IMG/VR virus record: IMGVR_UViG_3300036846_001155
Span: 1-27,201 of that record
Strand: one strand, 5' to 3'
Source of the DNA: a virus
Length of the DNA stretch: 27,201 nt
Made by a program: the position numbers and the translations under genes. Below are positions 3,591-24,686 of this stretch, piece after piece (position 1 is the stretch's first letter; each line of letters begins with the position of its first letter). The notes beneath the pieces were generated by a model. The model worked only from the letters and a program-made list of their open reading frames with translations, was not told the DNA's origin and did not search any database.

Positions 3591-4226
3591 GTGTCGACTG
3601 CTTTTCCTGGTATCCGGGGCCAGACCCCGCTTGACGACCTCCTAGACTTCAGCGGCACGGTCGCTGCCGGCGGCACGGCGCAGCTGTTGCTACCACAACA
3701 GCCTCGCCGTCTTTCACTGTCGGTGAGCGCAGTTGATGCTACCGACACTCTCTATTTGGGCCTCGGACCAGCTAAGGGAGTGGCTACCCTGACCTCGGGG
3801 ACCGTCTCGGCCATCGCAGTTAGCAACGCCGGCGTCGGCTACACGGTCGCACCCCAGGTCCGCATCCTCGGCGGCGTGGTCCAGGGCGACTACGAAACGG
3901 CCCCCGGCTCGACCAACCTCGGCGGAGCCTCCGTACCCGGCAGGGTTGCAGTCGCCCACGCCACTATCTCAGGTGGAGCCGTCACGGCCATCACCGTCGA
4001 CGACCCCGGTGCCGGATACTTGGTCGCCCCCCTTATTTACTTGGAGAACCCTTGGCCGGCGCTAGGCGGCGGAGCCTATGCGCCCGGCGTGAATAATGGC
4101 ATCCCGATCCCGATCAACACCACCTTCACCTTTGACGGCAGCCTGCTCGTGCCCGGTTCCGCCGTCGCCATCTTCGGGGCCACGACCGGCGACCAGTTCC
4201 ACGTGAAAGTCGGCGGCCTCGTTTGA
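3591..4226 (+). CDS. Virion protein with inserted Gly-Tyr-x-x-x-Pro beta modules
   Basis: The protein has 211 residues with a GTG start at 3591 and AGGAG six bases upstream. The N-terminal part (to about residue 62, ending DTLYLGLGPA) and the C-terminal part (about 165-211, with SAVAIFGATTGDQFHVKVGG) together resemble a short beta-sandwich seen in small phage decoration-type proteins, where the segments are usually adjacent. Between them, residues 65-155 hold two copies of the module VSAIAVSNAGVGYTVAP and VTAITVDDPGAGYLVAP. The same module occurs in the genes at 19030, 21472 and 22416. A surface or head-associated role is inferred from this sharing. The stop overlaps the next start by one base (TGATG). 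Confidence 0.7.
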   Translation: MSTAFPGIRGQTPLDDLLDFSGTVAAGGTAQLLLPQQPRRLSLSVSAVDATDTLYLGLGPAKGVATLTSGTVSAIAVSNAGVGYTVAPQVRILGGVVQGDYETAPGSTNLGGASVPGRVAVAHATISGGAVTAITVDDPGAGYLVAPLIYLENPWPALGGGAYAPGVNNGIPIPINTTFTFDGSLLVPGSAVAIFGATTGDQFHVKVGGLV

Positions 4227-4480
4227 TGACTAAGGGCTACCGCACCCTGAACCAGTGGCTGGCTTCGCGGCCACCCGCCGTGCGGGCGCTTGCCGCCGAG
4301 TTTCCCCTGGGCACCCGGCTCGATGCCGACGGCACCACATTCTGGGTCGCCGGCTACACTGAGGACGACACCCTTGTCGTGACCCGCATCGAGCCGCCGT
4401 GGGTAGGGAAGTGCTACGACATGATGATGAAGAGTCGACAGTACGTCTGCGCCGCCCATGTCAGGGAGCACAACACATAA
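4226..4480 (+). CDS. Hypothetical protein, 84 residues
   Basis: The start is ATG 4226 (MTKGYRTLNQWLASRPPAVR), overlapping the preceding TGA by one base; an in-frame TTG three bases earlier is not needed. The protein reads as a small folded domain: an N-terminal helix, then beta strands (GTTFWVAGYTEDDTLVVTRI) and a C-terminus with one cysteine pair too far apart to call. From its size and TFWVAGYT-type strands it could be a small beta-barrel protein, but I do not recognise it. It sits in a series of small genes between the beta-module protein and the packaging genes. Confidence 0.65.
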   Translation: MTKGYRTLNQWLASRPPAVRALAAEFPLGTRLDADGTTFWVAGYTEDDTLVVTRIEPPWVGKCYDMMMKSRQYVCAAHVREHNT

Positions 4481-4656
4481 CAACGTTCGGCCTAAGGTAT
4501 TGGAATGGCTACTTCCACTTCCATGTGATGTGGATGAGCCTCTCCCCTCCCTACGGGTGGAAGTCATCTCGCATGCGCAACCGTTACCGCGACCTCGACA
4601 AGGCCCTCCGTCACCTCTCTACCAAGGACGCCGTCGTCATGATCTTCCCAGTGTAG
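4477..4656 (+). CDS. Hypothetical protein, start uncertain (ATA candidate)
   Basis: The frame ends at TAG 4654-4656. The C-terminal part reads like real protein (RYWNGYFHFHVMWMSLSPP, YGWKSSRMRNRYRD). Normal starts are poor: GTG 4525 or ATG 4528 give about 43 residues, lack a ribosome binding site and lose the conserved-looking WNGYFHFH strand, while GTG 4399 would overlap the previous gene by 80 bases. AGGGAG at 4463-4468 lies eight bases before an in-frame ATA at 4477, which overlaps the previous stop as ATAA and gives 59 residues. I therefore give 4477 as the left limit and treat the start as open. Function unknown. Confidence 0.45.
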   Translation: MTTFGLRYWNGYFHFHVMWMSLSPPYGWKSSRMRNRYRDLDKALRHLSTKDAVVMIFPV

Positions 4657-4659
4657 CTC

Positions 4660-4866
4660 ATGCTTACCATCCCGCTCATGTACGAGGATGCCGAAGTCTG
4701 CATCCTGCCGGCCGACGATCACAACCCGCCGTTGATGATCCATGTCACGGAGTATGTAACCCTTGAGCGTCTGGGCGACGGCAGCCGGCTGGTAAAGATC
4801 ACTATGCCGGCGGGCCGCGAGTGGGCGCTCCTGCCCGCCGACTTGTTTAGCGACAAGGTCCAATAA
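4660..4866 (+). CDS. Hypothetical protein, 68 residues
   Basis: It starts at ATG 4660, three bases after the previous stop, without a clear ribosome binding site. The product (MLTIPLMYEDAEVCILPADD... REWALLPADLFSDKVQ) is acidic and looks beta-rich, with strands such as YVTLERLGDGSRLVKITMP. No motif is recognised. Its TAA overlaps an ATG at 4866 (TAATG), which opens a 101-codon rightward frame; that frame is in competition with the leftward gene at 4890-5123. Confidence 0.55.
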   Translation: MLTIPLMYEDAEVCILPADDHNPPLMIHVTEYVTLERLGDGSRLVKITMPAGREWALLPADLFSDKVQ

Positions 4867-4889
4867 TGGGAGGTCTAGCCATCTTGACG

Positions 4890-5123
4890 TTACTTGCATC
4901 TGGTCCGGCGGCCGTACTGAATGAGGCCGGCTGCCTCCTGCTCGCTTCGCTCGCAGTTGAAGCTTGCGGGTCTGGGTGCTTGCGCCGACGGATGGGGCCT
5001 CGCGCCCTGGCACAGCGTAATGCCAGGGATGCGCTGCACAAAACCAGCAGCAATCGCAGTATCAGCAAGCTGGAAGAAGCACAGGCAAAGAAGCAGCCGC
5101 AGCGGTACACACACCGCATGCAT
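4890..5123 (-). CDS. Possible small secreted cysteine-containing protein
   Basis: This leftward frame has 77 residues. ATG 5123 has GGGAGGGG nine bases upstream on its strand. The N-terminus looks like a signal peptide: MHAVCVPLR, hydrophobic LLLCLCFFQL, then ADTAIAAG with a possible cleavage after AIA. The mature part (about 50 residues) carries three Cys, is Pro/Ala-rich and contains CERSEQ, which is simply the translation of the GCGAAGC hairpin at 4938-4956. It is flanked by rightward genes and shares a short spacer with the gene at 5194. A lysis accessory or exported host-modifying protein would fit, but this is inference. The competing rightward frames at 4866-5171 and 4921-5157 cannot be excluded. 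Confidence 0.42.
   Translation of the reverse strand: MHAVCVPLRLLLCLCFFQLADTAIAAGFVQRIPGITLCQGARPHPSAQAPRPASFNCERSEQEAAGLIQYGRRTRCK
4938..4956 (-). repeat. GCGAAGC-tipped hairpin (family copy 1)
   Basis: On the minus strand, CTGC and GCAG arms pair around GA-GC-GAA-GC-GA. The core is GAGCGAAGCGAG. See copies at 9594-9614 and 14251-14271, whose arms differ but remain self-complementary. Confidence 0.7.
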
Positions 5124-5140
5124 CGCCGGTATCCCCTCCC

Positions 5141-5193: not shown

Positions 5194-5373
5194 ATGCCTA
5201 TGATCCGCCGAGCAGCCCCGATTGCCCCACCAGTTGCAAGTGGCCGGGGCCTCCGCAACGCCAAGGTCACGGCCCCCGTTGTCAACGCTCTGATGAATGC
5301 CGCCGCCCGCGCCCCCGCCCGAGGCCGCCGCAAGGGCCGCCGATCCCGCCGGGCCGGCCGCAAGAGCTACTAG
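5194..5373 (+). CDS. Small arginine-rich basic protein
   Basis: The protein has 59 residues. ATG 5194 is preceded by GGAGGGG (5181-5187) six bases away; a second in-frame ATG lies at 5200. The N-terminus is MPMIRRAAPIAPPVASGRG, the middle is Ala-rich, and the last 20 residues are nearly all Arg, Lys and Gly (RGRRKGRRSRRAGRKSY). This composition indicates nucleic-acid binding by charge. Similar Arg-rich tails occur in phage proteins that sit near packaged DNA. It begins the gene set running directly into the terminase and abuts the next gene (TAG then GTG). No defined family; role inferred from charge and position. Confidence 0.7.
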   Translation: MPMIRRAAPIAPPVASGRGLRNAKVTAPVVNALMNAAARAPARGRRKGRRSRRAGRKSY

Positions 5374-5574
5374 GTGCCTATCTTCTTAGAGGACCGCCTC
5401 AAGAGACAGGCATCCAAGCGAGGCCTGAAGGGTCGAGACGCCGCCCGCTACATCTACGGCACCATGAACAACCGTGGCTACATGCGCGGCAACAAAGTAA
5501 CCGCCAAGGGCCGTGAAGCAGAGCGCAAGCACCGCTCCCACCAACGGTCGAGACGGCGCACCAGGAGGTCTTGA
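5374..5574 (+). CDS. Small basic protein, function unknown
   Basis: The protein has 66 residues with GTG 5374 directly after the previous TAG; there is no own ribosome binding site, so translation is likely coupled. It reads MPIFLEDRLKRQASKRG, then ARYIYGTMNNRGYMRGN, and ends in a very basic tail (HRSHQRSRRRTRRS). The 'YIYGTMNNRG-x-M-R-G' stretch looks like a conserved motif of small basic phage proteins, although I cannot name a family. Its stop overlaps the start of the HTH protein gene by one base, and the AGGAGG of that gene is encoded within its end. Confidence 0.65.
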   Translation: MPIFLEDRLKRQASKRGLKGRDAARYIYGTMNNRGYMRGNKVTAKGREAERKHRSHQRSRRRTRRS

Positions 5575-5870
5575 TGTCTCTTGCGCATGACGACACCCCC
5601 GTCGCGCAGACCTACATGACCCGCGAAGAAGCCGCTGCTTACTTGTCCGAGCGCCTCCGCGGCACCTTCAACGCCAAGCAAATCTCCAAGTGGGGCGACA
5701 AGGGTCCGCGCTACCGGCTCTTCCGTGGCAACAAGGCCGCGCGAGGCGGCGGCTGGGGCCGGTGGGCACTCTACACCGCCGAGGACCTCGAAGCCTGGAT
5801 CGAAACCCAACTCGTGGAGCCGTTCCCCAATGGAAGACCTGACGAGCATTCTGCCGGCGAAGCGGGTTAA
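5574..5870 (+). CDS. Winged-helix/excisionase-type DNA-binding protein, candidate small terminase
   Basis: The protein has 98 residues; ATG 5574 has AGGAGG five bases upstream, so the in-frame TTG at 5571 is rejected. Residues about 15-78 fit a MerR/excisionase-like fold: MTREEAAAYLSERL as the first helices, NAKQISKWGDKGPRYRLF as recognition helix and wing, and ALYTAEDLEAWIETQL at the end. This is the pattern of DNA-binding helix-turn-helix proteins that bind short sites. Its position immediately upstream of the terminase large subunit, with a 41-base overlap, makes a small terminase subunit possible; a late regulator is the alternative. The motif assignment is by eye. Confidence 0.7.
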   Translation: MSLAHDDTPVAQTYMTREEAAAYLSERLRGTFNAKQISKWGDKGPRYRLFRGNKAARGGGWGRWALYTAEDLEAWIETQLVEPFPNGRPDEHSAGEAG

Positions 5871-7794
5871 CCGGCGTCGAAGTAAACCAACCCTCGACCT
5901 GCCAGTCTCCGAGCAACTGCTTGCTGGGACGACTCCCCAATGGAGATCCCTGTTTCAGGTCTTCCTCGACCACCTCACCATCGAGAGCCGGGAGACGGGC
6001 ACCACCACTCTTGGCAAACATCTCTGGGGATCGCAGACCCGGGTGCTCGACTTCTTGGCCGCCGGCATGGATGAAGGCATCCGCGACTTCACCATCCTCA
6101 AGTCGCGTCAGCTTGGCGAAACCACGATCTGCCTAGCCATCGATCTTTTCTGGCTCTTCCTCTATCCGGGGATCAACGGCTGCATCCTCATCGACGACGA
6201 GGGCAACCGCGACAAGATACGGGTGATCCTGCGCCAATATGCCAACGGCCTGCCGCCCAAATGGAGACATCGGATCGTCGACGACAACAAGACCCTGATG
6301 TCCTTTAATGTCGGCGGCAAGCTGTCGATGCTGGACTTCCTCTATGCCGGCACCCGGCGCTCAACCCTAGGCGCATCGCGGTCCTATCGCTTCGCCCACA
6401 TGACCGAGGTCGCCAACTACGGCGACCCCGAGGGCCTGGAGAACTTCATCCAGACGCTCAGCGAGGGCCACCCGGATAGACTCTTCATCAAAGAGTCGAC
6501 CGCCAATCACTTCAATCATTTCTACCACATGTGCGAGCAGGCGAAGGAAGACACCCACACTCAGCGCTTCTGCTTCGTGGGGTGGTGGTCGCGTGACGAT
6601 CAGCGCATCGCTTCATCAGACCCTCGCTATGACGAGTACATGAGTGAGCCTTGGACCGACGAGGAACTCGAACTCAAAGACGAGGTACTCCGTCTGTATA
6701 ATGTGACGGTAGATGACGAGCAATTGTGTTGGTACCGTTGGAGATCGACCGCCAGGTCGATCGACGAGGGGATGCTGCACCAGACCCAGCCGTGGACCGA
6801 GAGCCAGGCCTTCGTCCTCTCCGGCCGGAGCTTTTTCCCCCTCCGCCGCGTAGAGGCCGACATCAAGGAAATCTATCAAGCTGCGCCGGCGCAGGACTCG
6901 CCCTATGACTTCACGGCCTTCCGTTATTACTTGGGCCAGGACCTCCCATCCACTACCATCGAGGAAGTCCACACCATCGAGGAGGCCGACCTAAAGGTCT
7001 GGGAGGACCCCGTGCCCTGGGGCCGCTACGTCATCGGCGTCGACCCCGCCTACGGCCGCAGTGACTGGAACGACTCGCACGCCATCACGGTGTGTAGGTG
7101 TTACGCGGATAGGTTGGTCACCGTGGCCGAGTACGGCACCCCCGAACCCGAAACCTTTCAGGTGACATGGGCACTCGCGCATCTGGCCTCTCTCTATGAT
7201 GACTGCTACATCAACATCGAGGTCAAGGGACCCGGCGTCGTCATCATGAACGAGCTGCGTAGACTTAAAGTTTGGCTCCAGTCCCAGATGATGGCGACCA
7301 TTGTCCACGACAAGGACTGGCGCAACATCACCGACAACGCCAAGTGGTATCTGTGGCATCGACCCGACAGCCTTGGTAAGGGTTACGCCTACGGCGTCAA
7401 CACTACCTATGATCTCAAGATCGCGATCATGAACGAACTTCGGGACAGCTACATCAACCACGCCCTATGGATCAAATCCCTCCGCTGTCTCAAGCAGATG
7501 CAGTTTGTGGTACAAGAGGGTGCGGACATTGGGCCGGGTGCCAAGGGCCGCAACCACGATGACTACGTCTTCAGTCTCGCCTTTGCTCACCGGGCGTGGC
7601 AGGACTGGGTCCGTCAGGACCTGATCGACCTCGGCTACACCTGGGCGCGCGCGCAACAGGATGACCTCGACCGGCGCACCGGCAGGCCGCCCAATGCTGT
7701 CGCCAACATCGTCGCCAACTTCTTCGCCAACAAGGAGCGCGACCGGACCGAGGGGCCGCCCGAACAAGCCTGGTACCGGGAGCGCGGCCTGTGA
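5830..7794 (+). CDS. terL: Terminase large subunit (ATPase/nuclease)
   Basis: This 654-residue protein drives DNA into the prohead and cuts it. ATG 5830 (MEDLTSILPAKR) overlaps the previous gene by 41 bases; the frame is open back to 5725, but that extension overlaps a real gene and is Pro/Ser-rich. The ATPase shows the Walker A region LKSRQLGETT (residues 90-99), comparable to T4 gp17 SRQLGKTT but with Glu where Lys is expected, and a Walker B region FAHMTEVANYG (188-198). The nuclease domain shows VDPAYG (404-409, Asp405), INIEVKGPG with Glu464, and HDDYVFSLAFAH (576-587). Length and order are typical of terminases. The C-terminal 60 residues are probably the flexible tail. It abuts the next gene by a TGTGA overlap. 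Confidence 0.95.
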   Translation: MEDLTSILPAKRVNRRRSKPTLDLPVSEQLLAGTTPQWRSLFQVFLDHLTIESRETGTTTLGKHLWGSQTRVLDFLAAGMDEGIRDFTILKSRQLGETTICLAIDLFWLFLYPGINGCILIDDEGNRDKIRVILRQYANGLPPKWRHRIVDDNKTLMSFNVGGKLSMLDFLYAGTRRSTLGASRSYRFAHMTEVANYGDPEGLENFIQTLSEGHPDRLFIKESTANHFNHFYHMCEQAKEDTHTQRFCFVGWWSRDDQRIASSDPRYDEYMSEPWTDEELELKDEVLRLYNVTVDDEQLCWYRWRSTARSIDEGMLHQTQPWTESQAFVLSGRSFFPLRRVEADIKEIYQAAPAQDSPYDFTAFRYYLGQDLPSTTIEEVHTIEEADLKVWEDPVPWGRYVIGVDPAYGRSDWNDSHAITVCRCYADRLVTVAEYGTPEPETFQVTWALAHLASLYDDCYINIEVKGPGVVIMNELRRLKVWLQSQMMATIVHDKDWRNITDNAKWYLWHRPDSLGKGYAYGVNTTYDLKIAIMNELRDSYINHALWIKSLRCLKQMQFVVQEGADIGPGAKGRNHDDYVFSLAFAHRAWQDWVRQDLIDLGYTWARAQQDDLDRRTGRPPNAVANIVANFFANKERDRTEGPPEQAWYRERGL

Positions 7795-9614: not shown

Positions 9615-9957
9615 GAGCACACCTGGACCCTACAACTTGGTGATCTACCGGGGTGACACCGGCACCTGGGAGTTCGTGTTGTGGGCCGACGCCGCCAAGA
9701 CGGTGCCCTTCGATCTTTCCGGGGCCTCCGCCAAGGCTGAGATCAGGAACCGGCCCGGCGGCGTCCTGCTGGCCACCCTTGCAGTATCCATCAACCTGCC
9801 GCAGACCATCGTCGTCTCCCTGACCGAGGCCGCGAGCCTGGCTCTCAACGGCGGCGTCTATGCGTGGGACCTGCCGGTGACCATGCCGGGTGGCGGTGTG
9901 CAGACCATGATGGCGGGGCCGGTGACAGTGACGGAGGATGTGACAGGGAGCACGTGA
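9613..9957 (+). CDS. Phage structural beta-domain protein
   Basis: The protein has 114 residues. The start is ATG 9613, at the base of the hairpin at 9594-9614; there is no Shine-Dalgarno sequence. The pattern [20 protein letters not shown], then [31 protein letters not shown], and [15 protein letters not shown]...VTVTEDVT resembles a small beta-sandwich domain frequently found in phage baseplate or fibre-associated proteins. Its place directly before the collagen-like fibre (one-base TGATG overlap) suggests it is a partner or chaperone of the fibre, or a fibre base. The assignment is by motif memory only. Confidence 0.75.
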
Positions 9958-11738
9958 TGGCCTTCACCGATGTAGCCGTGGTCGATGTCATTCCGCCGCC
10001 GCCTATCGTGGTCGATGTGGTGGTGCCGCCGGGTGTCCAGGTGGTGGAGGTTATCGCCGGCACCCAGGGTCCGGCTGGACCACAAGGCCCACCAGGCAAC
10101 AATGGTGCCGTAGGGCCGATTGGGCCGCCGGGAACGCCGGGTGGGCCTCCGGGTCCGACGGGTCCGATTGGGCCGACGGGTGCTACTGGCGCAGTTGGTC
10201 CTCCTGGGCCTACAGGTGCCACAGGGCCGCAGGGACCGACCGGCGCAACAGGTGCAACGGGACCCGCCGGCACCGGCACCGGAGCCAACCCGACATCCCA
10301 GGTCAGCGGCACTGTGGTCAATGGCACCTCGGTCAACTTCATGCGGGCGGACGGCGCACCCGCCTTGGCCAATACCACGGTGACGCCAGGCAGCTACACC
10401 TACTCGGCGATTACTGTTGACGCGCAGGGCCGGTTGACAGCAGCCGGCAGCGGCACTGCTCCGGTCGCCCCACCTGTTGGAGCCAACCCCACGGCTACGG
10501 TTAGCGGCACCGTAGTCAATGGTGTGGCCACTACATATATGCGCTCAGATGCTGCGCCGGCCCTCGCCAACACCACGGTGACAGCCGGTTCCTATACCCT
10601 CTCTTCCATCACCGTTGATGCGCAGGGCCGGCTGACTTTTGCCTCGAACGGCGCAGCCGTCACCAGCGTCACCGCCGGCACCGGCCTCTCCGGCGGCACC
10701 ATCACCGCCAGCGGCACCATTGCTCTTAGTAGCCCGGTCGCTGTCGCTAATGGCGGCACAGGTGTAGGGACGCTGACGGTGAACCGGCCACTGCTCGGCA
10801 ACGGTACTGCTGCGGTGGTGTCGTCCACGATCATGACAGATGACGGGTCGACGCTGACAGTATCGACGAACCAAGTCATTGGCGCGGCGGTCACCGCGCC
10901 GCCGACGCACACGCTGGTCCTCAATGACTGCATCACCACGCCGCAGGCTACAAGTATTGGGCAGGGCTTCTTGACAGTTGCCTCGGATGCAACTGGGCCA
11001 GGGCTCTTCCTTGAGGGTTACGGGACGGCAGGTAACAGCGTTGTGGTTGGACGTCGCGCACGCGGCACGGCGGCAGCACCGACAGCCGTGCAGTCAGGTG
11101 ACATTCTCCTGGCACTTAATGGGGCTGGCCGGGCGGCGACAAACTACGCCGGCGCCAATACCAACATCGTGTTGCAGGCGGCGGAGAACTTCACGGCGAC
11201 GGCGCAGGGTACACAGATCGTCTTTAATACGGTGCCGACGGGCACCACGGGGTCCAGCAATGTCCTGACGCTTTCCAACAACCGGGGGACGTTTAACGGG
11301 TCGGTTTCGGCGTCGGGAGGAATTGTCGGTGTTACCGATGGTAGTGATGCTGCGGCTGGGATGGTCGGGGAGTACCTCGCCGGAGTACAGGCGGCGGTCG
11401 CGATGACATCGAGTTCGCCGATCACCATCGCTAGCGTGGCCCTCACGGCAGGCGACTGGGATGTCAATGCCAACCTTGTTTTCACCCCGGCTGGTGGTGC
11501 GACGGCAACACTTGGGATAGTCGCACTCAACACGACCACCAATACCCTACCCGCCAGTGTCTTTGACGGCAGCTATACTCAAGTACCCGTGACGGCGGCC
11601 GGGCAGTTTGTCCTGGTTTCTGGTACCAAGCGTTTTAGTCTGGCGGCGGCGGCAACAGTCTTTCTCGTTGGGTTTGTGCAGTTTACCGGCGGCACCTGCA
11701 CCGGGCAGGGGTTTGTTCGTGCACGGCGGGTCCGGTGA
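9957..11738 (+). CDS. Collagen-like tail fibre or spike protein
   Basis: The protein has 593 residues from ATG 9957; the longer frame back to 9864 lies inside the previous gene. Residues 1-35 are Val/Pro-rich and could anchor to the virion. Residues about 36-107 are Gly-x-y collagen repeats ([10 protein letters not shown] and many others), which trimerise as a rod. Two near-identical repeats of about 57 residues follow (about 109-165 and 175-232, both ending [12 protein letters not shown]). The central part is a beta-rich shaft, and the last ~125 residues (starting near [11 protein letters not shown], with [15 protein letters not shown]) form a globular beta domain of the kind seen at fibre tips, likely the receptor-binding end. 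This role is inferred from architecture. Confidence 0.85.
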
Positions 11739-11832: not shown

Positions 11833-13029
11833 ATGGCCTCCTTGCTGGATGACCCCTCCTTAGAGCTTGGCGGCGCACTCGACAAGGTGTCTCCGCAAAC
11901 CCCTGTGTCCGGGCGGGTCATCCGGCCCCCGAGGAGTATCCTGAATGTCGTCACCGGGGCCGGCGAGGCCATCGGCCAAGATGTGGGTGGGATGCTCCAG
12001 GGCTTAGCTAACTACATCAAGACCCCTGGCATGGTCGCCAGTGGGGAAATACCCATGGGAGATGTGGCCAGGGCGGCGCAGGGCTTTGCCGCCAACACTG
12101 CCCTGTTAGGTGCGGGGATGCCTGCCCCAGCTGGTGCCCTCCGTTCACTGGCCGGGGTCAACAAGGCGGCCGCCGTCGACAGCGAGGCCCTGCTGACCGC
12201 CAAGGTCATGGCCTCCGGCGGGGCAACCCCGGACCAGATATGGGCTAAGACTGGGCACTACCAGGATGCCTTTGGCAACTGGCGCTTTGAGATACCCGAC
12301 CAAGGAGCCAAGCTGATTGCTCCGCCGGGCACCGGAGTCACCACCGCCGGCTGGGCCTTCGAGCACCCTGGACTCTTCAGGCAGTACCCTGATCTGGCTG
12401 GCCTCCCCGTCAACTTCAGCACGACGCTGGAACACGCAGGGCAAATGAACAAGAACGTCATAACAGGCAGGCCGGCACGGATGTACATCAACGCCAACCA
12501 GTCGCCAGAGCAGATACTAAAGACCTTCTTGCATGAAAGCGGGCACGGCATCCAGCTGCTGGAGGATTTGCCGGGTGGGTCCTCGCCGGAGGCATTCCTG
12601 CCGTCGGGTCACGCGACCCGGGTATGGAACTATCTCGGCCGTCTCGAACGCTTTAACGACCATCTCAAGACGGCAGGCATCGATCCTGCTGCGGAGGACC
12701 TTGGCACCCAGGAACTGAACGAGCTGCGCGAAGATTTGAACCGGGAGGGGACCGCTATAAACGAGGTGGCGGATAGAGCCAGCGCAGACTACCGGCAGGT
12801 GGCCGGCGAAATGGAGTCGTTCAACGTCGAGAGGCGGCACGACATGCCGCCGGAGGACCTTAGGCGTTGGTCGCCACCCAGGACCCAGGACACACCCTTT
12901 GGCCAGGAGACCATCTCCCCCAATGAGGTGCAGCCGCTGCGCCACCCGATGATCCGGCCGGCCCCTGTCCAGTGGACCTGGCCTAATATACTGTCTGCCC
13001 TCGCCGGCCTGAACCAGGGACAGCAGTGA
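11833..13029 (+). CDS. Polyvalent-protein-type metalloprotease, probable internal virion protein
   Basis: The protein has 398 residues from ATG 11833, without a ribosome binding site. The middle region resembles the large polyvalent protein domain families (LPD) in phages and mobile elements: NWRFEIPDQGAKL (149-161), AFEHPGLFRQYPDLAG (175-190), ARMYIN (215-220), then ILKTFLHESGHGIQLLED (228-245), where H234-E-x-x-H238 is a zinc metalloprotease motif. Family members usually have a slightly different HExxH and a conserved Gly after it. The N-terminal 115 residues are a hydrophobic, Gly/Ala-rich segment that could interact with membranes. I infer a protein carried in the virion and ejected, or a maturation protease. 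It abuts the next gene by a one-base TGATG overlap. Confidence 0.7.
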   Translation: MASLLDDPSLELGGALDKVSPQTPVSGRVIRPPRSILNVVTGAGEAIGQDVGGMLQGLANYIKTPGMVASGEIPMGDVARAAQGFAANTALLGAGMPAPAGALRSLAGVNKAAAVDSEALLTAKVMASGGATPDQIWAKTGHYQDAFGNWRFEIPDQGAKLIAPPGTGVTTAGWAFEHPGLFRQYPDLAGLPVNFSTTLEHAGQMNKNVITGRPARMYINANQSPEQILKTFLHESGHGIQLLEDLPGGSSPEAFLPSGHATRVWNYLGRLERFNDHLKTAGIDPAAEDLGTQELNELREDLNREGTAINEVADRASADYRQVAGEMESFNVERRHDMPPEDLRRWSPPRTQDTPFGQETISPNEVQPLRHPMIRPAPVQWTWPNILSALAGLNQGQQ

Positions 13030-14263: not shown

Positions 14264-14271
14264 CGAGCGAT
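14251..14271 (+). repeat. GCGTAGC-tipped hairpin ending on the portal start codon (family copy 3)
   Basis: Arms ATCGC (14251-14255) and GCGAT (14267-14271) enclose the same GAGCGTAGCGA core as 9594-9614. The third base of each arm differs from that copy (C and G rather than G and C), keeping the pair. The last AT is the start of the portal ATG at 14270. Confidence 0.75.
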
Positions 14272-15982
14272 GGCCAGGCGGAGCCAGACACCCAGTCACG
14301 CGGCTAATCTGGGCCGGATACCCCGGCGGGATGTTGGGGCGTGGTGCCAGGAGATCATTGCCAAGTGCACCGTGAGCCGGGATGATCGGGTCAGGCAGGC
14401 GCAGGTCTACAGGAACTTCTATTATACCGGGACGGATGACGGGCAGGGGGCCGTCGACAATGAGATTTACCCGGCGGTGGATCATCTGGCCTCGTCGCTC
14501 TTTAGCCCCGTCAACCCAAGATTTGTCTTTAGCTTTGACCATAGCGATACGCCGGAGGAGCGGGCCAAAGGACACAAGGCCGCCGAGCATCTCAGCAAGG
14601 AGTTCTCACGAAGAGGGGTCGACAATGCCTTTGCCGCCGCCGTCAACTGGGGCCTCATCGACAGCTCCTGCTTTGTCAAGCTGCTATGGGGCCGGAAGGG
14701 CCTCGACCCCTATGTGATCGCCCAGGGCTTTATGGGGGTCTACTACGAGGGATTGCAGGGCCTCGACCGGCAGGACGCCTTTGTCCACACCAGCTTCATG
14801 ACGCTGGGGTCCTTCGAGCGGAGCATCGCGGACCACCCCGAAGAGCGGGCGATCAAGAACTATGTCAGGAGAAGGGCGAGGGCTGACCCGACGATCATGG
14901 GCCAGCAGCACGACGTGCGCACGTTGTTGATTGGCGGGACCATCCCGGTCAACCTGACGCCCCCCCAATCGAGTATTCCGGGGGGCTGGGTCAACTGGGT
15001 CAAGGGACCGCGCCCACAAGTCGATGCCCAGACCCTTACCGAGCTTGTCCAGATCGACGAGCTGTGGGTGATCGACAACGACCGGGAGGACTACACCACC
15101 TTCCAGCTGGTGGACGAGCTGGTCATCGAGGGCAAGCTCCAGCGGCGCAACTTGTTGGGCATTAGTGGGCACCAGCCGTTTGTGCAAGTCGTGCCCAATC
15201 CTGTGCTCGACTACTTCTGGGGGAGGTCCGAGGCGGCCCAGCTGATGATGGCCCAACAGGCGGTCACGGCCCAGGTCAACGGCATCTCGCGGACCATGCG
15301 GATGCAGGAGGACCCGCCGATGACCTTCAACGGGATGACCGGCAACATCGACGAGAAGCGAAGTACACTCATGAAGCCCGGCGGCCGCCTTGCGGAAAAT
15401 AACCCGCAGTTCAAGGCCGAGAACATGGCCCCCAAGTTGGCCGAGCAGGCCCTGCCTTTCCTGGGAGATTTGCGGGAGAACTTCCACCGGCAGAGCGGGT
15501 TTGAAGCGCCGGTGTCAAGGGGCATGGGCGAGCAGGGTGTGAGATCGGGCGTACACGGCGAGACGATGGTGCGGATGGCCTCGCCTAGACTAAGGGACCG
15601 GGCACTCGACATCGAGAAGACCTACGCCGAGTTGGGCGACCTCGGCTTCCAGATGTTGCAGGACAAGGTGCCCGACATGTTCACCGTCCATGTCGAGGGC
15701 CAAGCCAAGCCAGTAGAGTTTATCCTGGACCAATTGGCGGATGACTACGATCTGTCGGTAGACAGTCATAGTGCAAGTCCGGCCTTCTCGGAAGAAGCAA
15801 GGTCACTTGCCTTTGACTTGGCGAGGACCAAAGCCATTGATGACAAGGGCCTAATCCGCTTGACACACCCTCCCCAGGAGGACACTCTTCTCGCCGACAT
15901 CGACGAGCGCCGGAAGAAGCAGGCAGAGATGCTTGCAGCTCACCCGGAGATGCTACGGTCGTCTGGTCGAGGCCGAGGCTAA
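14270..15982 (+). CDS. Portal protein
   Basis: The 570-residue protein is the head vertex ring through which DNA passes. Start ATG 14270 is at the hairpin end; no Shine-Dalgarno sequence is directly upstream. Portal-like features are EIYPAVDHLASSLFSP, the helix-rich NAFAAAVNWGLIDSS, and PFVQVVPNPVLDYFWGRSEA followed by QLMMAQQAVTAQVNGISRTM (about residues 305-345), matching the way portal proteins of podovirus-type phages introduce a long helical crown and stem. The C-terminus (about 500-570) is helical and charged. Position between the internal proteins and the scaffold/capsid genes is normal, and the length is typical. No lysozyme or protease domain is fused. Confidence 0.85.
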   Translation: MARRSQTPSHAANLGRIPRRDVGAWCQEIIAKCTVSRDDRVRQAQVYRNFYYTGTDDGQGAVDNEIYPAVDHLASSLFSPVNPRFVFSFDHSDTPEERAKGHKAAEHLSKEFSRRGVDNAFAAAVNWGLIDSSCFVKLLWGRKGLDPYVIAQGFMGVYYEGLQGLDRQDAFVHTSFMTLGSFERSIADHPEERAIKNYVRRRARADPTIMGQQHDVRTLLIGGTIPVNLTPPQSSIPGGWVNWVKGPRPQVDAQTLTELVQIDELWVIDNDREDYTTFQLVDELVIEGKLQRRNLLGISGHQPFVQVVPNPVLDYFWGRSEAAQLMMAQQAVTAQVNGISRTMRMQEDPPMTFNGMTGNIDEKRSTLMKPGGRLAENNPQFKAENMAPKLAEQALPFLGDLRENFHRQSGFEAPVSRGMGEQGVRSGVHGETMVRMASPRLRDRALDIEKTYAELGDLGFQMLQDKVPDMFTVHVEGQAKPVEFILDQLADDYDLSVDSHSASPAFSEEARSLAFDLARTKAIDDKGLIRLTHPPQEDTLLADIDERRKKQAEMLAAHPEMLRSSGRGRG

Positions 15983-17979: not shown

Positions 17980-18008
17980 CTACGGACCTTAAAGTGGAGA
18001 ACAAGTAA
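17976..18008 (+). other. Ten-codon minicistron bridging scaffold and capsid genes
   Basis: ATG 17976 overlaps the scaffold TGA (ATGA) and the frame MTTDLKVENK ends in TAA that overlaps the capsid ATG (TAATG). Both junctions are coupling-type overlaps. The capsid gene's GGAG is inside it. It could be an accident of a 30-base spacer. Confidence 0.3.
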
Positions 18009-19018
18009 TGCCCCAGTTCGGCAGCGGCATTATTCCAAGTGGGCCTGTAGGCCTCGAACTTGCTGCAATCACCCGGCGGGCATTCATCCCGGCCTTGGTG
18101 GTCCAGATATACAAGGCCCACCCGGTCTTGAGCCTGCTGCTGGGTAATGCCCAGAGGGCGGCCGGCGGCGTCTCGTCGGTCACAGTGCCGACGCAGGGGG
18201 CGTCGTTTGTCCAGTATAGCTGGGCCGGGTTTGACGGCGCATTCCCGCAGCCGACGGACCTGACCGCCGTGCAGAATGCCGAGTTCAACCTCAAGCTTGG
18301 CGTCGTGCCCATCCCGTTCCTGGGGATGGAGGCACTGGTCCAGGCAACCGAGGTCGTCATCCCCCGGTTGAGAGCCGTCATGGCCGACGCCAAGGCTGTC
18401 GCCACCCAGAGCATCGCCTCTGCCCTCTACCAGAACAACCAGAACGCTCCCCTCCAGGTCGACAGCTTCTCACAGGCCTATGACAACGGGGCCAACGTCC
18501 CGACGTACGGGGGCATCAACCGGAACGCCAACCCGTTCTGGAAGTCCAACCTGATCGCGGTCAACACCAACATCTCCACCCGGGTGGGCATCGCCTCCAG
18601 GATCGCGCAGCTGACCTTCCTGAATGGTGGGGAAGCGCCGGACTTCGGGGTCATGTCCTTCGGCGACTGGACTACCCTCATGCAGGACTTCATGGGGGCC
18701 GAGCAATTCAGGACCAGCCCAGGCTCTGTCTATGGGATGGACGACAGCGTGAATGCCGGGTTCCGGTGCCTGACGGTCCTCAACGTGCCGATCTTCCCCG
18801 ATCCGTTCTTGCAACAGGGGACGATGTACCTGTTCAACACCAAGTATATCGCGATGTACATCAGCGAGGACGCGCCGTTCCTGTTCTCCGGGTTCGAGAG
18901 CACCATCCCCAACTTCCAGATCGCGAATATTGGGGTGATGATCGTGGCCTTCAATGTGGTCTGCACCAAGCCTGTGACGGGCATGCAGTTGACTGGCATG
19001 ACCGGCAACGCTTTCTAG
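18008..19018 (+). CDS. Major capsid protein
   Basis: The protein has 336 residues from ATG 18008, with GGAG eight bases upstream. Its position right after the scaffold-like gene, its size, and stretches such as AITRRAFIPALVVQIYKAHP near the N-terminus, FGVMSFGDWTTLMQDFMGA in the middle and PDPFLQQGTMYLFNTKYIAMY followed by ISEDAPFLFSGFES point to an HK97-fold capsid subunit of podovirus-type phages: helix spine followed by an A-domain and the conserved 'YLFNTKYI' strand. No protease signal or N-terminal delta domain is apparent, which fits a separate scaffold. A named family is not asserted; the assignment is from architecture and context. Confidence 0.85.
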   Translation: MPQFGSGIIPSGPVGLELAAITRRAFIPALVVQIYKAHPVLSLLLGNAQRAAGGVSSVTVPTQGASFVQYSWAGFDGAFPQPTDLTAVQNAEFNLKLGVVPIPFLGMEALVQATEVVIPRLRAVMADAKAVATQSIASALYQNNQNAPLQVDSFSQAYDNGANVPTYGGINRNANPFWKSNLIAVNTNISTRVGIASRIAQLTFLNGGEAPDFGVMSFGDWTTLMQDFMGAEQFRTSPGSVYGMDDSVNAGFRCLTVLNVPIFPDPFLQQGTMYLFNTKYIAMYISEDAPFLFSGFESTIPNFQIANIGVMIVAFNVVCTKPVTGMQLTGMTGNAF

Positions 19019-19029: not shown

Positions 19030-20175
19030 ATGCCTACTATTCGCGGCACCGGGCTTCCCCTCACCCTCGGCAAGGCGACCACCAACACCGAGAGCCTTGC
19101 TGCTGGTGCATCGCGGGTTCTGCCGGCGGGTGCCAACGCTGTCCATCTGGGCCAGTACAGCTTCATCCAGTATTTCGACCCGGTGTGGAATGTGAACACC
19201 GCGTCGAATGCTGGGCCGACGGGCGAGTGGAAGACTTGTCCTCGGCCCTGGAACGGCTGGATTTATGTCGAGAGCGACGGCGTCAACCTGCGGGTCGCCA
19301 ACCTGTCAGGGTGCGTGCTGGGTGCAGTGCTGACGGCGGCAGGCAGTGGCTATACCAGCCCGCCACTAGTGACGGCGAGTGCCGGCGGCGCTCAGTTTAG
19401 CGCCATCGTCGGCGGCTTGGTTAACACCTCACAGAGTTTGCCAGCCAACCCAGGCTCCGGCTACACCATTCCTCCGAGGTTGTTGGTCAGTGCTCCGCCG
19501 CCTGGTGGAGTGCAAGCGACTGCCCACACGACGTTGTCGGGAGGCGTAGTCAACACCATCGTCGTGGACAACCAGGGTGCCGGCTATGTCAGCCCGCCCC
19601 TTGCCACCTTCGTGACCGACCCCAACGATACGGGATCGGCGATCAACCCGGCGGGGGCGAGTGTCCAGAACACCCCCAACTCGATGACGTTGAGCCTGAC
19701 GGGTGCCGGGACGATTGCGGCCGTCGTCATGACCAATCCGGGCCTGCCCCAAACGGCGGTGCCGACGTTGGCGTTTGCGGGTGGTGGTGGGACGGCGGCT
19801 GCGGCCACGGCGGTGATGAACTTCTCCGTCACCGGCTACACTGTATCGTCCGGTGGCACCGGCGTCCCGGCGGGCACTGCTCTTATCTCCACCGGCGGCA
19901 TCGTCGCGGTGACCCCGATCCATGTGAACCCAAGCATCGAGGCGGGTCTGATCCTGCCCCGACAAGCCAAGATCGTGCCAGCACTGTCGGGCGGTGCCAT
20001 TGTGCCAAGCGGCACGACGCCGCCGCTCGCCGTTGAGGACTGGGGCATCGGCTTCTCGGCCATCCCCAATCTGGCGATCCTGTCGGGGTCCGGCACGGAG
20101 ACGACCGGCGCGACCGTCGCCGCGACCGTCGGCGGCAACCTCGATATTATCTACATCCAGTCGTTGACGGGTTGA
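19030..20175 (+). CDS. Virion protein with beta-module repeats, probably head-decorating
   Basis: The protein has 381 residues. ATG 19030 has AGGAG eight bases upstream (19017-19021); the longer frame lies inside the capsid gene. Residues 1-93 read as a small beta domain (LGQYSFIQYFDPVWNV, ESDGVNLRVANLSG). Residues about 95-265 hold several modules of the type AAGSGYTSPP, NPGSGYTIPP, NQGAGYVSPP and NPGLPQTAVP, as in the genes at 3591, 21472 and 22416. The end (266-381) is another beta-rich domain with LILPRQAKIVPA. Placement directly after the capsid gene suggests a decoration or capsid-fibre protein. The module repeats may add adhesion surfaces. Confidence 0.7.
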   Translation: MPTIRGTGLPLTLGKATTNTESLAAGASRVLPAGANAVHLGQYSFIQYFDPVWNVNTASNAGPTGEWKTCPRPWNGWIYVESDGVNLRVANLSGCVLGAVLTAAGSGYTSPPLVTASAGGAQFSAIVGGLVNTSQSLPANPGSGYTIPPRLLVSAPPPGGVQATAHTTLSGGVVNTIVVDNQGAGYVSPPLATFVTDPNDTGSAINPAGASVQNTPNSMTLSLTGAGTIAAVVMTNPGLPQTAVPTLAFAGGGGTAAAATAVMNFSVTGYTVSSGGTGVPAGTALISTGGIVAVTPIHVNPSIEAGLILPRQAKIVPALSGGAIVPSGTTPPLAVEDWGIGFSAIPNLAILSGSGTETTGATVAATVGGNLDIIYIQSLTG

Positions 20176-20179: not shown

Positions 20180-20650
20180 ATGAGAACGCCTGGGATCAGT
20201 GGGACGCTGGCCTTTACCGAGGGGGTCTTCACCGGCCCCTTCTTTGGGCCGTTCGCCGAGGTCGGCGTCAACAGCACGGTGGGCAACATCCCCGGCTCCC
20301 CCCAGGACCTCACCGGGGTGCCGACGGGTGGAGCGAGCCATGTAACCCTACTGTTGAACGGTGCTCAAGTCGGCGGCGTCAACTACACGCTGCCGACTGT
20401 GGCGGCCATCGTGGCGGCGCAAGGGGCACCCTTTGCTCAACAGGACATCATCGGCTGGTGGTATCGGCTGCGTATTGTCAATGTCGGCTCCGGGCAGATC
20501 ATTACGGTGGTGCTGCCGGCAGGTGGCGGCTGGACCTTTACCGGCAGCCTTCTCACCATAGCCAACAACACGTTCCGGGATTTCGTCGTGCAGATCCTCT
20601 CGCCGACGACAGCGAACCTGATCAGCACTGGTGTGGGTACCTACTCGTGA
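20180..20650 (+). CDS. Small structural protein, possible head protein
   Basis: The protein has 156 residues, ATG 20180, without a good ribosome binding site. It starts MRTPGISGTLAFTEGVFTGP and runs as a beta-sandwich (THVTLLLNGAQVGG-type strands, GWWYRLRIVNVGSGQIITV, FTGSLLTIANNTFRDFVVQI) ending STGVGTYS. The 'IANNTFRDFVVQILS' and 'TGVGTYS' strands resemble a beta domain found in phage minor capsid and head fibre proteins, but I cannot name a family. It is located between the decoration-type protein and the adaptor genes. Confidence 0.65.
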   Translation: MRTPGISGTLAFTEGVFTGPFFGPFAEVGVNSTVGNIPGSPQDLTGVPTGGASHVTLLLNGAQVGGVNYTLPTVAAIVAAQGAPFAQQDIIGWWYRLRIVNVGSGQIITVVLPAGGGWTFTGSLLTIANNTFRDFVVQILSPTTANLISTGVGTYS

Positions 20651-20656: not shown

Positions 20657-21472
20657 ATGGCGCTGAATGCCTACCTTAATGCGCTGCAAATACTCCTGCA
20701 CGATCAGGCTGGACTTGCGTATCCGCAGTCGGTCCTGACCGGCTTCATCAACGAAGCACGGCAACAGGTTGCCCTGGAGAGCGAGAGCATCCGGGGCCTC
20801 GGCTCTGTCGACACGGTAGCGAGCCAGTCAGAGTATCTGAATAGCACGGTGGTGCCGCCGGCGTACCCGACGGGCATCGCCAACTTGATCACGCCACGGT
20901 CTATCCAATTCGATCCAGGGCTGGTCTTGGCCGACGGCCGGACCCCACAGGTGACGCTGGTTAAGAGGAACTGGGACTGGTTCAACTTTTATGAGAGCGG
21001 CATGGCGAGGCGGCCACCAGGGCCGCCTAGAGTCTGGGCACCCTTTATAATGGGGACGCCGACGTTGCCTCAAGGCGGCATATCGTCGGGCACAGTGGCC
21101 GGCGGCACCTTTTTCATCAACCAGCCCAATGCCGTCTATACATTGATAATAGATGGGACCTGGGGGCCGGCGAACCTGGAGACGGATGATGACCCGGAGG
21201 CGCTGCCGGGTCCTTTCAATGATGCCGTCCCCCTCTACGGGTTGTACCTGGGCTTTATGGATGCCAGGCTCAACGAGCTGGCCCAACAGGCGTTGCAGGT
21301 CTACGAGCTGTTCATGACCCGGGCGCGCGGCATCGTCACGCCGCTACCGGAGCAGAATGCCTTCCCTGGTGGCCTGAATGCGCGTCGCCTGCCAGGGATG
21401 GCCCCGCCTCAGAGGGGTGCTGGGGCGGGGCCGCCTGCCCAAGGGCAGGGTGGTGGCCAGGGCGGTGGCTAA
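20657..21472 (+). CDS. Head-tail adaptor protein, paralogue 1 (no beta module)
   Basis: The protein has 271 residues, ATG 20657, without a clear ribosome binding site. It begins MALNAYLNALQILLHDQ, then FINEARQQVALESESIRGL, a helical adaptor-type N-terminus parallel to that of the next gene (MQLAEYLQRVQRVLTDQ, YVNEARVFVALEGECCRGL). After this the two diverge, but both have an RVW[AS]P strand and an acidic helix end. The C-terminus here is a Gly/Gln-rich tail (QGQGGGQGGG). It corresponds to the neck adaptor that docks under the portal in podovirus-type virions. Its stop overlaps the next start (TAATG). Two paralogous adaptors in tandem is a notable feature. Confidence 0.75.
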   Translation: MALNAYLNALQILLHDQAGLAYPQSVLTGFINEARQQVALESESIRGLGSVDTVASQSEYLNSTVVPPAYPTGIANLITPRSIQFDPGLVLADGRTPQVTLVKRNWDWFNFYESGMARRPPGPPRVWAPFIMGTPTLPQGGISSGTVAGGTFFINQPNAVYTLIIDGTWGPANLETDDDPEALPGPFNDAVPLYGLYLGFMDARLNELAQQALQVYELFMTRARGIVTPLPEQNAFPGGLNARRLPGMAPPQRGAGAGPPAQGQGGGQGGG

Positions 21473-22416
21473 TGCAGCTGGCCGAGTATCTCCAGAGAGT
21501 CCAGAGGGTGCTGACCGATCAGACCTTTCAGCGCTTCAACATCGACGATCTGGTCCAGTATGTCAACGAGGCGCGGGTCTTTGTCGCCCTTGAAGGTGAG
21601 TGCTGTAGAGGATTGGTCCCTAGCACGGCAGGGATTGGGGATCTCACTCTAACAAATGGGGGGTCTGGGTACACAAGTGTGCCGGAGGTAGTGATCTCGC
21701 CGCCACAACTTGGTACAGCCGCCACCGCCCAGGCCTTTATTGGTGGGGACCAGGTTACCTTCGTGCAACTGTTGACGCCGGGCGACGGCTACTCGACCTT
21801 TAGTACACCGGCGATCAACTTTGTGGGAGGGGGAGGAACAGGGGCGACGGCCACCTTTACGTTGATGCCCTTCGCCCAAGCCATCTTTGGCCAGGAGGTC
21901 TACACTCACCAGAGCCTGAACCCCATACTAAGAGGCAGCGCGGCAAGCCCGGGCCTCAACGAGATTGTCAACATCAGGAACTGCGCCGTCTCGTGGGGAT
22001 CGATGAAGCCGATGATGAGGTACATGACATGGGGCGACTTCCAGGCTTACCTCAGATCATACAACGTCGCTGCGCAGGGCTTCCCCCGTGTGTGGTCACC
22101 CTACCAACTGGGGACCAATGGGAGCTTCTACCTGTGGCCGATCCCGGCCCAGAACGCACAGATGGACCTGGACTGCACCTGCACACCCATCGACCTGGAC
22201 ATGGCCAACAACGAGATATACGACGCCATACCGAGGCCCTTCGACTTGGCTGTCGCGTATAAGGCCGCCGAGATCGCCTGTCTGAGTGAGCCTGACCTGG
22301 CAGGGCGAGCGCCGCAGATGGACGCCCAGTACCAGATGCGGATGAGGTTCGCCTCGATGACGGCCTCTGGAAGAACGATCATACCGGACTACTACAACTC
22401 AGCCGGCATGGCCTGA
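21472..22416 (+). CDS. Head-tail adaptor protein, paralogue 2, with inserted beta modules
   Basis: The protein has 314 residues, ATG 21472, coupled by TAATG. Residues 1-50 match paralogue 1 (see that entry). Residues about 53-133 are an insertion: TNGGSGYTSVPEVVISPP, then a spacer, and TPGDGYSTFSTPAINFVGGG, matching the modules of genes 3591, 19030 and 22416. After this FGQEVYTHQSLN resumes adaptor sequence, comparable to VASQSEYLNS in paralogue 1, and FPRVWSPYQLGTNGSFYLWP, IYDAIPRPFDLAVAYKAAEI complete it. The insertion is thus visible by comparison with the neighbour. It should sit between portal and nozzle. Stop overlaps the next ATG (TGATG). Confidence 0.8.
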   Translation: MQLAEYLQRVQRVLTDQTFQRFNIDDLVQYVNEARVFVALEGECCRGLVPSTAGIGDLTLTNGGSGYTSVPEVVISPPQLGTAATAQAFIGGDQVTFVQLLTPGDGYSTFSTPAINFVGGGGTGATATFTLMPFAQAIFGQEVYTHQSLNPILRGSAASPGLNEIVNIRNCAVSWGSMKPMMRYMTWGDFQAYLRSYNVAAQGFPRVWSPYQLGTNGSFYLWPIPAQNAQMDLDCTCTPIDLDMANNEIYDAIPRPFDLAVAYKAAEIACLSEPDLAGRAPQMDAQYQMRMRFASMTASGRTIIPDYYNSAGMA

Positions 22417-24686
22417 TGGCTCAAGGCCAGCAGGCAGCCAGAGGCGCTGGCCTGGCGACGGGACTGCCCGGCGAACTCGAACTCTTTAGTCCGTTCCCGT
22501 TCAAGGGGATGGAGGTCAAGGGGTCGCCGACGGCGATCGACGATGCCGACTTCGCGTGGCTTGAGAACGTCATGTGGATCGGCAACGGGCAGATGGCCTT
22601 CCTGGCCAGCAGTGCGTCGAGTCCTTTCTACACCAGCACGCCGCTTACCATCGCCACCTACCAGTTCTTTGTCCTAAACGGCAACGAGTTCTTCGTTGTG
22701 TTCCTCAGCGACGGCTCGTCCGTAGAGTTGGACATCCCAGGCGCGGCGGTGATACCGATGGCACCGGCGGGGACCTTTACGCTGGGACCGACGCTGCCGG
22801 TCAGTGCCACGTATGGTGCCAAGTATCTCTGCATCGGGAGCGCCGACAGCTATCACATCTGGGACGGAAGCGTGCTTTATGGGCCGGGGGGCCTGGCACC
22901 ACAGGTCACGGTAACGTCGGCGGGCCAGAATTATACGTCTGCGCCGACGGTGACTATTGTAGGAGGTAGTGGGACGGGGGCGACTGCCTTCTCACAGATC
23001 GTCAACGGCTCGGTGACCAGCATTACCTTGACTAATCCTGGCACCGGCTACGGACCTCATGACGGCGGTTCACTACAAGTGCTGATCACCGGCGGCGGCA
23101 ATGCCGACAGATTGGCGACGGGTGCAGCAGCCATCGGCGGCGGCGGCGTGATCAGCGTGCAGATAGTGGATGGCGGGACGGGCTACACCAACCAACCGAC
23201 AGTGACTTTCTCGGGAGGGGGAGGCTCGGGGGCGACAGCCGTAGCGGCAGGGACCGCCAACAGCATTACCCAGATTACGGTTGTGACCCCAGGCTTGGGA
23301 TACACCTCTGCCCCTACTGTGACCATTGGAGCACCCGCCGGCGGCGGCAACACGGCCACAGGTATTGCGGTCGTCAGCCTCAACGGGATCAACACCGTGA
23401 CGGTGACCGACGGGGGGGCCGGCTACACCAGTACTCCCACCGTCCAGATCACCGATCCCTTTGGGTTTGGCTTCGGGGCAGTGGCGACGGCCAACATGGG
23501 GGCCGGCGTCGTCACCAGTGTGACCGTCATTAATCCAGGGCAGGATTATCATGATGCGGTGGTGACCTTTGTCGGCGGCAACCCCAACGTAGCCACGGCA
23601 ACGGTCGAGCTGATGCCGCAGGGCGGGCAGAACCCGGTCAGTGGGGCGGCCATCCAGGTCTTCAAGAACCGGGTATGGATGGTCAACAACACGTTTCGGT
23701 ATACAAGTGCCGGCGGCGACGTGGCTGACTTCAGCGCTGCTTCGGGCGGCATCATCTCGCAGAACAACGACAACTTCCTGATCTACCACCTGTTGGGGCT
23801 GGCCCAGTCATCGGGGTTTCTTTATGAGTTCGGCGATAGCTCGGTCAATGCCATCAGCAACCCGACCACGACAACGGTGGGGGCGACGAGCACCTCGCCG
23901 GGCGTGACCAGCACCACCTTTACGGTCACCAATGTGGACCCGCAGGTGGGCTGCATTTGGCCGCAGACCATCCAGAACTTCGGTGAAGCGATTATCTTCG
24001 CCAACCCCACCGGCATCTATGGGCTGTATGGGTCCTCGGTAAGAAAGATCAGCACCGACCTCGACGACCTCTTCAACAACCTGCCGGACCAGTCGGGCAT
24101 CCTGCCGACGGCCTGCACAGTTCACCTGTTTGGTATCAAGTGTTATTGTATATCGATGCAGGTGTTCGATCCCTACCAGAACCTGGTGAGGAACCTGCTG
24201 CTGCTGTGGGACGGGTTCAAATGGTTTAGCGCCACCCAGGAACAACTGATGTTGTACCTGGCCACTGTTGGCGTCGGCGGCCAATTCATCGGGTATGGGG
24301 CCGATCACCAACATATCTGGGAGATGTTCTCCAGGCCGAGCGTGACGCTGACCAAGACCATGATCAGCAAGCTCTACGGCGCTACGTCGGCTCTGAAGGC
24401 CAAGCGGGCGATGAGGTTTTATCTGACGGCTGAGCAGCCCATGCAATATGAGGTAGTGCTCCACTCGGAGTTCGGCGATGTGAGCCTGGGGCCGCTGGGC
24501 TATCCCAATCCTGGCGTCATTATGCCTTCGCCGCCAGGTGCGTATGGGAGGAGCTTCGCGGTCCAGTACCAGGATGCACAGGGCGTCTGGGGCCACTATC
24601 TGGGGTGGACATTGACCTCCACGGTGGCGGCGAATAATATCAATTACATGGCTCTTGCGTGGCTCCCCGATGCCCCAGCCTTCTGA
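22416..24686 (+). CDS. Tail nozzle-like protein with inserted beta-module array
   Basis: The protein has 756 residues, ATG 22416. Residues 1-158 and 405-756 together look like the nozzle/stabilisation protein that forms the short tail of podoviruses: DDADFAWLENVMW, ADSYHIWDGSVLYG, then FKNRVWMVNNTFRYTSAG, DVADFSAASGGI, and CYCISMQVFDPYQNLVRN, FKWFSATQEQ. A phage beta-propeller of this kind typically has 'IWDGS...' followed closely by 'FKNRVW'. Here residues about 160-400 (22893-23615) intervene, made of at least five modules (SAGQNYTSAPTVTI, DGGTGYTNQPTVTF, TPGLGYTSAPTVTI, DGGAGYTSTPTVQI, NPGQDYHDAVVTF). The stop overlaps the next gene by 17 bases. The nozzle call is from pattern and gene order. 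Confidence 0.75.
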   Translation: MAQGQQAARGAGLATGLPGELELFSPFPFKGMEVKGSPTAIDDADFAWLENVMWIGNGQMAFLASSASSPFYTSTPLTIATYQFFVLNGNEFFVVFLSDGSSVELDIPGAAVIPMAPAGTFTLGPTLPVSATYGAKYLCIGSADSYHIWDGSVLYGPGGLAPQVTVTSAGQNYTSAPTVTIVGGSGTGATAFSQIVNGSVTSITLTNPGTGYGPHDGGSLQVLITGGGNADRLATGAAAIGGGGVISVQIVDGGTGYTNQPTVTFSGGGGSGATAVAAGTANSITQITVVTPGLGYTSAPTVTIGAPAGGGNTATGIAVVSLNGINTVTVTDGGAGYTSTPTVQITDPFGFGFGAVATANMGAGVVTSVTVINPGQDYHDAVVTFVGGNPNVATATVELMPQGGQNPVSGAAIQVFKNRVWMVNNTFRYTSAGGDVADFSAASGGIISQNNDNFLIYHLLGLAQSSGFLYEFGDSSVNAISNPTTTTVGATSTSPGVTSTTFTVTNVDPQVGCIWPQTIQNFGEAIIFANPTGIYGLYGSSVRKISTDLDDLFNNLPDQSGILPTACTVHLFGIKCYCISMQVFDPYQNLVRNLLLLWDGFKWFSATQEQLMLYLATVGVGGQFIGYGADHQHIWEMFSRPSVTLTKTMISKLYGATSALKAKRAMRFYLTAEQPMQYEVVLHSEFGDVSLGPLGYPNPGVIMPSPPGAYGRSFAVQYQDAQGVWGHYLGWTLTSTVAANNINYMALAWLPDAPAF

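Follow-up and report, generated by a model that had tools for sequence, protein, structure and literature searches.

A GxGYTxxP beta domain as a probable interchangeable building block of virion proteins in an uncultured family of short-tailed phages

Tailed phages carry small Ig-like beta domains on many unrelated virion proteins, and the shuffling of domains is well known in their receptor-binding proteins. In the adaptors of SU10, T7 and P-SCSP1u, the fibre dock is a domain separate from the helix bundle; the adaptors of P22 and Sf6 lack it. Domain shuffling in phage proteins has been surveyed (PMC10684548). With regard to the tail nozzle, the closest described system is gp17 of phage SU10, a seven-bladed propeller whose blades 2 and 3 flank an insertion of four Ig-like nozzle domains; its blades 1 to 3 lie away from the channel, and the nozzle domains build an extended nozzle for DNA delivery (PMC9509320).

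The window analysed here is the whole of a 27-kb virus record stretch (27,201 nt), which encodes a terminase (5725-7794), an SU10-like portal (14270-15982; Pfam SU10_portal, 31.1 bits against a cut-off of 30) and a major capsid protein (18008..19018, + strand; phrog_9953, 5.6e-21) that was used as the marker for the species tree. From the capsid gene on, the gene order is capsid, protein B, a 156-aa protein (starting at 20180), protein D, the adaptor (protein E) and the nozzle (protein F). Relatives, denoted below by L numbers, comprise at least 80 IMG/VR loci collected via the capsid protein together with two GenBank records (MW202825 and MW202753; Manatee Spring), and all were searched with profiles covering each half of the adaptor and of the nozzle. 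The window phage and these relatives are an uncultured family of short-tailed phages. Elsewhere, the window encodes a tail-fibre-like protein with collagen repeats (9864-11738), a protein with an LPD23 domain (1.3e-14) and an HExxH-like stretch, FLHESGHG (11833-13029), and a protein of the aspartyl/asparaginyl beta-hydroxylase family (26169-26771; PF05118, 1.8e-14) in what is a phage genome.

Proteins encoded by the genes at 3591, 19030, 21472 and 22416 carry a repeat of 42 residues with the consensus GAVTSITVTNGGSGYTSAPTVTISGGGGSGxxATATATLSGG. A profile refined on the phage family and then run on all window proteins detected two, four, two and six copies in them, respectively, and none in the remaining proteins of the window. 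When every window ORF was shuffled 20 times, the top score was 10.4 bits, and 13 of the 14 copies lie clearly above this maximum; the exception is the second copy of the nozzle (10.6 bits), accepted because of its position in the array and its homologues rather than its own score. Reversal of the nozzle array removed every PHROG match of the real one, indicating that the repeat signal is more than Gly/Thr/Val composition. These observations bear out an earlier note on this DNA, which had placed such modules in the same four proteins and whose module coordinates agree with those found here (3798-4097, 21637-21864 and 22896-23606).

Protein F, the tail nozzle (22416..24686, + strand), was modelled with a pLDDT of 80.8 as a platform, a seven-bladed propeller and a module array. 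The best 26 Foldseek matches of the model are all tail-nozzle or tail-complex chains of short-tailed phages, including the nozzles of cyanophage A4, SU10, T7, Pa223, GP4 and P22 and others, as whole-chain matches and not as residue-level alignments. According to the strand pattern of the model, the blades span residues 79-116, 129-149, 412-449, 459-508, 520-544, 565-606 and 614-651, with the platform after them; blades 1 and 2 (residues 79-149) thus correspond to 22650..22862 and blades 3 to 7 (residues 412-651) to 23649..24368, both on the + strand. Between blades 2 and 3 lie six half-repeats (22896..23606, + strand), interpreted as three domains of two repeats each, with half-repeat scores of 43.6, 42.7, 41.3, 40.1, 18.6 and 10.6 bits. 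As taken from the strand list rather than from the coordinates of the model, the array covers residues 160-399, between strands 146-149 and 412-415. On this predicted structure, the position appears to fit the nozzle domains of SU10 better than the adhesion loops that had been proposed previously, and by analogy the array most likely takes the role of those domains.

Across the family, the gap that houses the nozzle array measures 24-28 aa with no modules, 86-91 with two, 171-186 with four, 249-262 with six and 328-331 with eight. Module-free nozzles are those of L025, L028, L031 and L032, and all other arrays occupy one fixed site. The 36 distinct nozzle arrays among the loci listed fall in length classes of 0, 2, 4, 6 and 8 modules, with none at 3, 5 or 7; the divergent arrays of L047, L053, L067 and L092 were assigned to their copy class from length alone, because the profile detects some of their copies or none. 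A length outlier of 148 aa, in L094 and L095, consists of a two-module array plus a foreign piece of 62 aa. Two copies are also found in each homologue of protein A. In addition, 82-83 columns of the adaptor model, the length of a two-module unit, superpose on predicted viral proteins at 1.0-1.1 Å rmsd and 37-40% identity, one of them from cyanophage S-PM2 and another from a different virus (Foldseek, with no residue range given). Since copy number is always even, the natural unit, for folding as well as for transfer, is probably a domain of ~84 aa made of two half-repeats.

Considering these features together, we find it fairly probable that the GxGYTxxP domain is a transferable building block of the virion, gained, lost and exchanged as a whole, whose array in the nozzle is the counterpart of the SU10 nozzle domains. 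Each repeat would represent a three-strand half of the ~84-aa beta domain, and the domain could be accommodated at junctions within virion proteins whose folds it leaves undisturbed. On this reading, the nozzle holds 0 to 4 domains between blades 2 and 3, the adaptor one ahead of its 'QEVY' strand, protein B two after its N-terminal domain and protein A one. Whole domains would be gained, lost or swapped, with some lineages replacing them by an insert of another type (W...YxV...NGTxTLxY). In the nozzle they would most likely form a string of beta domains outside the tail tip, determining how far the tip reaches or what surface contacts it makes, and in the adaptor the domain would probably touch fibres or the cell surface. 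The module domains are probably exposed on the virion, and they may serve in nozzle extension, fibre docking or adhesion.

A different possibility, which can be entertained with some reserve, is that the domains act as adhesins that bind glycans of the host surface, their carrier proteins being mere mounts. It draws on the finding that, in many phages, proteins of the tail, adaptor, neck and baseplate bear the repeat. PHROGs 460, 701, 708, 2885, 1922, 438 and others match it, with E-values down to 3e-28 for the nozzle array, and the matching proteins comprise the head closure protein Hc2/gp14, gp7 and other baseplate wedge proteins, the hub lysozyme, fibres and structural proteins. Searched by tblastn, a natural array reached 346 GenBank phage records, nearly all of them Synechococcus or Prochlorococcus phages; gp14 of S-SKS1 contains four repeats by profile, and gp7 of P-HM1 also carries the repeat. 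No entry for the repeat was found in Pfam, NCBIfam or the PDB, nor was a description of it as a domain found in a literature search, and no meaningful match came from searches of PDB sequences with the single proteins or with profiles of the nozzle and of the module. The repeat, widespread in phage virion proteins, probably also misleads annotation. The short-tailed phage nozzle of MW202753.1 (L008:8956-10944) is annotated as 'baseplate wedge initiator', a misnomer that probably arose because the shared repeat draws in T4-like gp7.

The glycan-adhesin proposal is also favoured by the swap, at the same sites, with a second insert type. Compared with L093, L078 and L085, the nozzles of L094 (3079-5004) and L095 (2768-4693) hold the 62-aa foreign piece within their second repeat, and their array shares 73% DNA identity with that of L093, versus 88-94% in the flanks. 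This piece is related to the adaptor insert of L098 and L101 (E 8.5e-6 among the ORFs searched), so the nozzle site and the adaptor site alike are occupied, in some lineages, by a second type of insert. Adaptors with an unrelated insert in place of modules are those of L008, L073, L088, L098 and L101, the adaptor genes listed with the second insert type being L098:8453-9298, L101:2195-3040, L073:5897-6742 and L008:8105-8953. Its pattern, W...YxV...GT...P...NGTxTLxY, resembles carbohydrate-binding modules by eye only. However, the domains gave no match to a carbohydrate-binding family, and a mechanical role would also agree with the single site in the nozzle and with array length changing in steps.

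The building-block reading applies to the adaptor as well. Protein E (21472..22416, + strand) matches Pfam SU10_adaptor with 32.7 bits (cut-off 27), and this SU10-type family, PF24175, scores 51.3 bits in L098 and 43.2 bits in L059. Its model (pLDDT 87.4) has helices at both ends and a beta middle, which is the adaptor fold, and podovirus adaptors are its best Foldseek matches (GP4, A4, SU10, N4 and others; 8jov, 9k09, 7z47), in addition to a weak PDB match of the adaptor profile to the GP4 adaptor (E 0.068). A predicted phage protein of 211 aa, short enough to be without modules, aligns with the model at a TM-score of 0.88 normalised by its own length. Modules E1 (21637..21747, 42.9 bits) and E2 (21754..21864, 27.9 bits) lie on the + strand. 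In relatives, the corresponding gap measures 24-27 aa when empty, as in most of them, 110-118 aa with two modules and 92-94 aa with the different insert; a longer module-free stretch is seen in L034, L035 and L038-L040. Adaptors with modules, always exactly two, are those of the window clade, L025, L027, L028, L031 (with 9 bits only), L044, L059 and L051. In L059 and L051 both modules sit at another site, about 15 residues further on than in the window, an independent acquisition.

The adaptor domain could instead be a docking arm for tail fibres, in place of the fibre dock that T7 and SU10 adaptors have. Its insertion in the central, non-helical region of the adaptor model would suit such an arm, as does the division of known adaptors into those with a fibre dock (SU10, T7, P-SCSP1u) and those without (P22, Sf6); nonetheless, most relatives do without the insert, making this explanation rather unlikely. 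Upstream of the adaptor lies protein D (20657..21472, + strand), a second adaptor-like protein without modules, which the adaptor profiles match with a gap of 42 aa and which aligns with the adaptor. Such tandem adaptor-like pairs are present in the window clade, also in L019 and L021, and L041 likewise has two; two different adaptor-type chains of GP4 (8jov_2, 8jov_G) are among the Foldseek matches.

Protein B (19030..20175, + strand) has an N-terminal domain of ~93 aa followed by the modules and a C-terminal part. Modules B1 (19309..19425, 34.1 bits), B2 (19426..19545, 46.5 bits), B3 (19543..19641, 31.4 bits) and the degenerate B4 (19708..19818, 23.1 bits) are all on the + strand and come after the N-terminal domain, and there is no evidence in protein B of a fold split in two by them. 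The N-terminal domain is homologous (hhalign probability 94%, E 1.9e-8) to a module-free protein of 107-126 aa that a large part of the family encodes after the capsid gene. In L040, a tandem pair of B-type module proteins (5364-6443 and 6451-7530) follows the capsid gene. When protein B is aligned with the small module-free protein of L007 (7162-7488), the alignment extends into the first strand of module 1 (VNGGxAxSGTY versus TNAGSGYT), and on this likeness the repeat may have arisen from a C-terminal strand such as that of the L007 protein.

Protein A (3591..4226, + strand) is a small, beta-rich protein of 211 aa in which the profile places modules A1 (3798..3920, 33.7 bits) and A2 (3975..4097, 35.8 bits), both on the + strand, between the N- and C-terminal parts. 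Its homologues in L013-L015 and the distant L105 (221 aa, in the L044 genome) all share the same two-module layout. No module-free relative turned up in phage records when searching with the N-terminal 65 residues; the sole hint of one is a weak match to phrog_22789 (100 aa), whose profile also matches unrelated control genomes.

Besides the spread of the module, the earlier note had read DNA shared by the modules of the genes at 21472 and 22416 as a sign of recent copying, and the modules might accordingly be regarded as copies between genes of one genome, recently so in the window. The shared DNA is indeed present: GGGAGGGGGAGG occurs exactly at 21825 and 23213, both times inside modules. 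It belongs to a single match of 28 nt and 86% identity that encodes the conserved peptide GGGG(T/S)GATA, so that the shared stretch codes for a conserved Gly run, and the 12-mer with up to two mismatches was observed 7 times versus 8.2 expected from shuffles. Moreover, module DNA of the window adaptor and nozzle has a mean identity of ~52%, and the modules of 9 among 44 other nozzles match those of the adaptor at least as well, so recent copying between the window genes is not borne out. Adaptor modules of L044 are nearer to those of their own nozzle than to any of 44 others, and those of L059 likewise on DNA, which hints at exchange within these two genomes; as a general account, copying within one genome is nonetheless quite improbable. 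Movement within the virion gene set, as previously envisaged, thus stands at the scale of the family but is not supported as a recent event in the window genome.

In a comparison of four close relatives, dN is 0.05-0.13 for the adaptor array versus 0-0.055 for its flanks, and 0.04-0.07 for the nozzle array; dN/dS is ~0.05-0.24 in the adaptor and nozzle arrays. Positive selection was not found in the arrays, dN being raised in the adaptor array yet dN/dS remaining below ~0.25. The arrays are therefore under purifying selection in these close relatives, maintained rather than decaying.

That the modules are insertions is confirmed for adaptor, nozzle and B-type proteins, since module-free homologues of all three, which the earlier note had proposed looking for, exist in the same family, some of them in close relatives of phages whose proteins bear modules. 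The related claim that modules interrupt a fold holds for adaptor and nozzle on the basis of such homologues, whereas those found for protein A all carry modules, at the same place. On the capsid tree, which joins two long branches, at least six changes are needed for the adaptor state, about ten for nozzle copy number (including the foreign piece of L094 and L095), at least two for nozzle presence and at least two for B, in counts that do not separate gain from loss. Hence, the view that the modules are ancient integral parts that merely appear inserted, despite their constant place in protein A and a nozzle site conserved even at about 30% identity, is hardly tenable against the module-free adaptors, nozzles and B-type proteins and the second adaptor site of L059 and L051.

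The shuffling described here concerns core tail parts, namely adaptor and nozzle, and a single family displays empty, occupied and second sites together with classes of copy number. It thereby provides natural pairs with and without modules for probing nozzle domains of short-tailed phages. It is conceivable, though we would not expect it, that the two-repeat domain is a general interchangeable tail part of short- and contractile-tailed phages, and that the number of whole domains in the nozzle tunes the reach of the tip upon its opening on the cell.

Regarding known systems, T4-like cyanophages share the repeat, as judged by profile, together with a unit of two repeats whose predicted fold is the same; in these contractile-tailed phages it is borne by other proteins than in the window family. 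The spread over virion proteins is similar to that of the promiscuous Ig-like domains of phages, although the module domain has no Pfam Ig-like match. The core of the window adaptor matches the SU10-type adaptor PF24175 above cut-off, and adds a two-repeat domain in its N-terminal half. With respect to the nozzle, SU10 has four Ig-like domains, while the window family has from 0 to 4 two-repeat domains, in varying number and of a sequence that Pfam does not class as Ig-like. Nonetheless, the SU10 nozzle and the window nozzle model share the same fold and present their string of beta domains at the same place, between blades 2 and 3.
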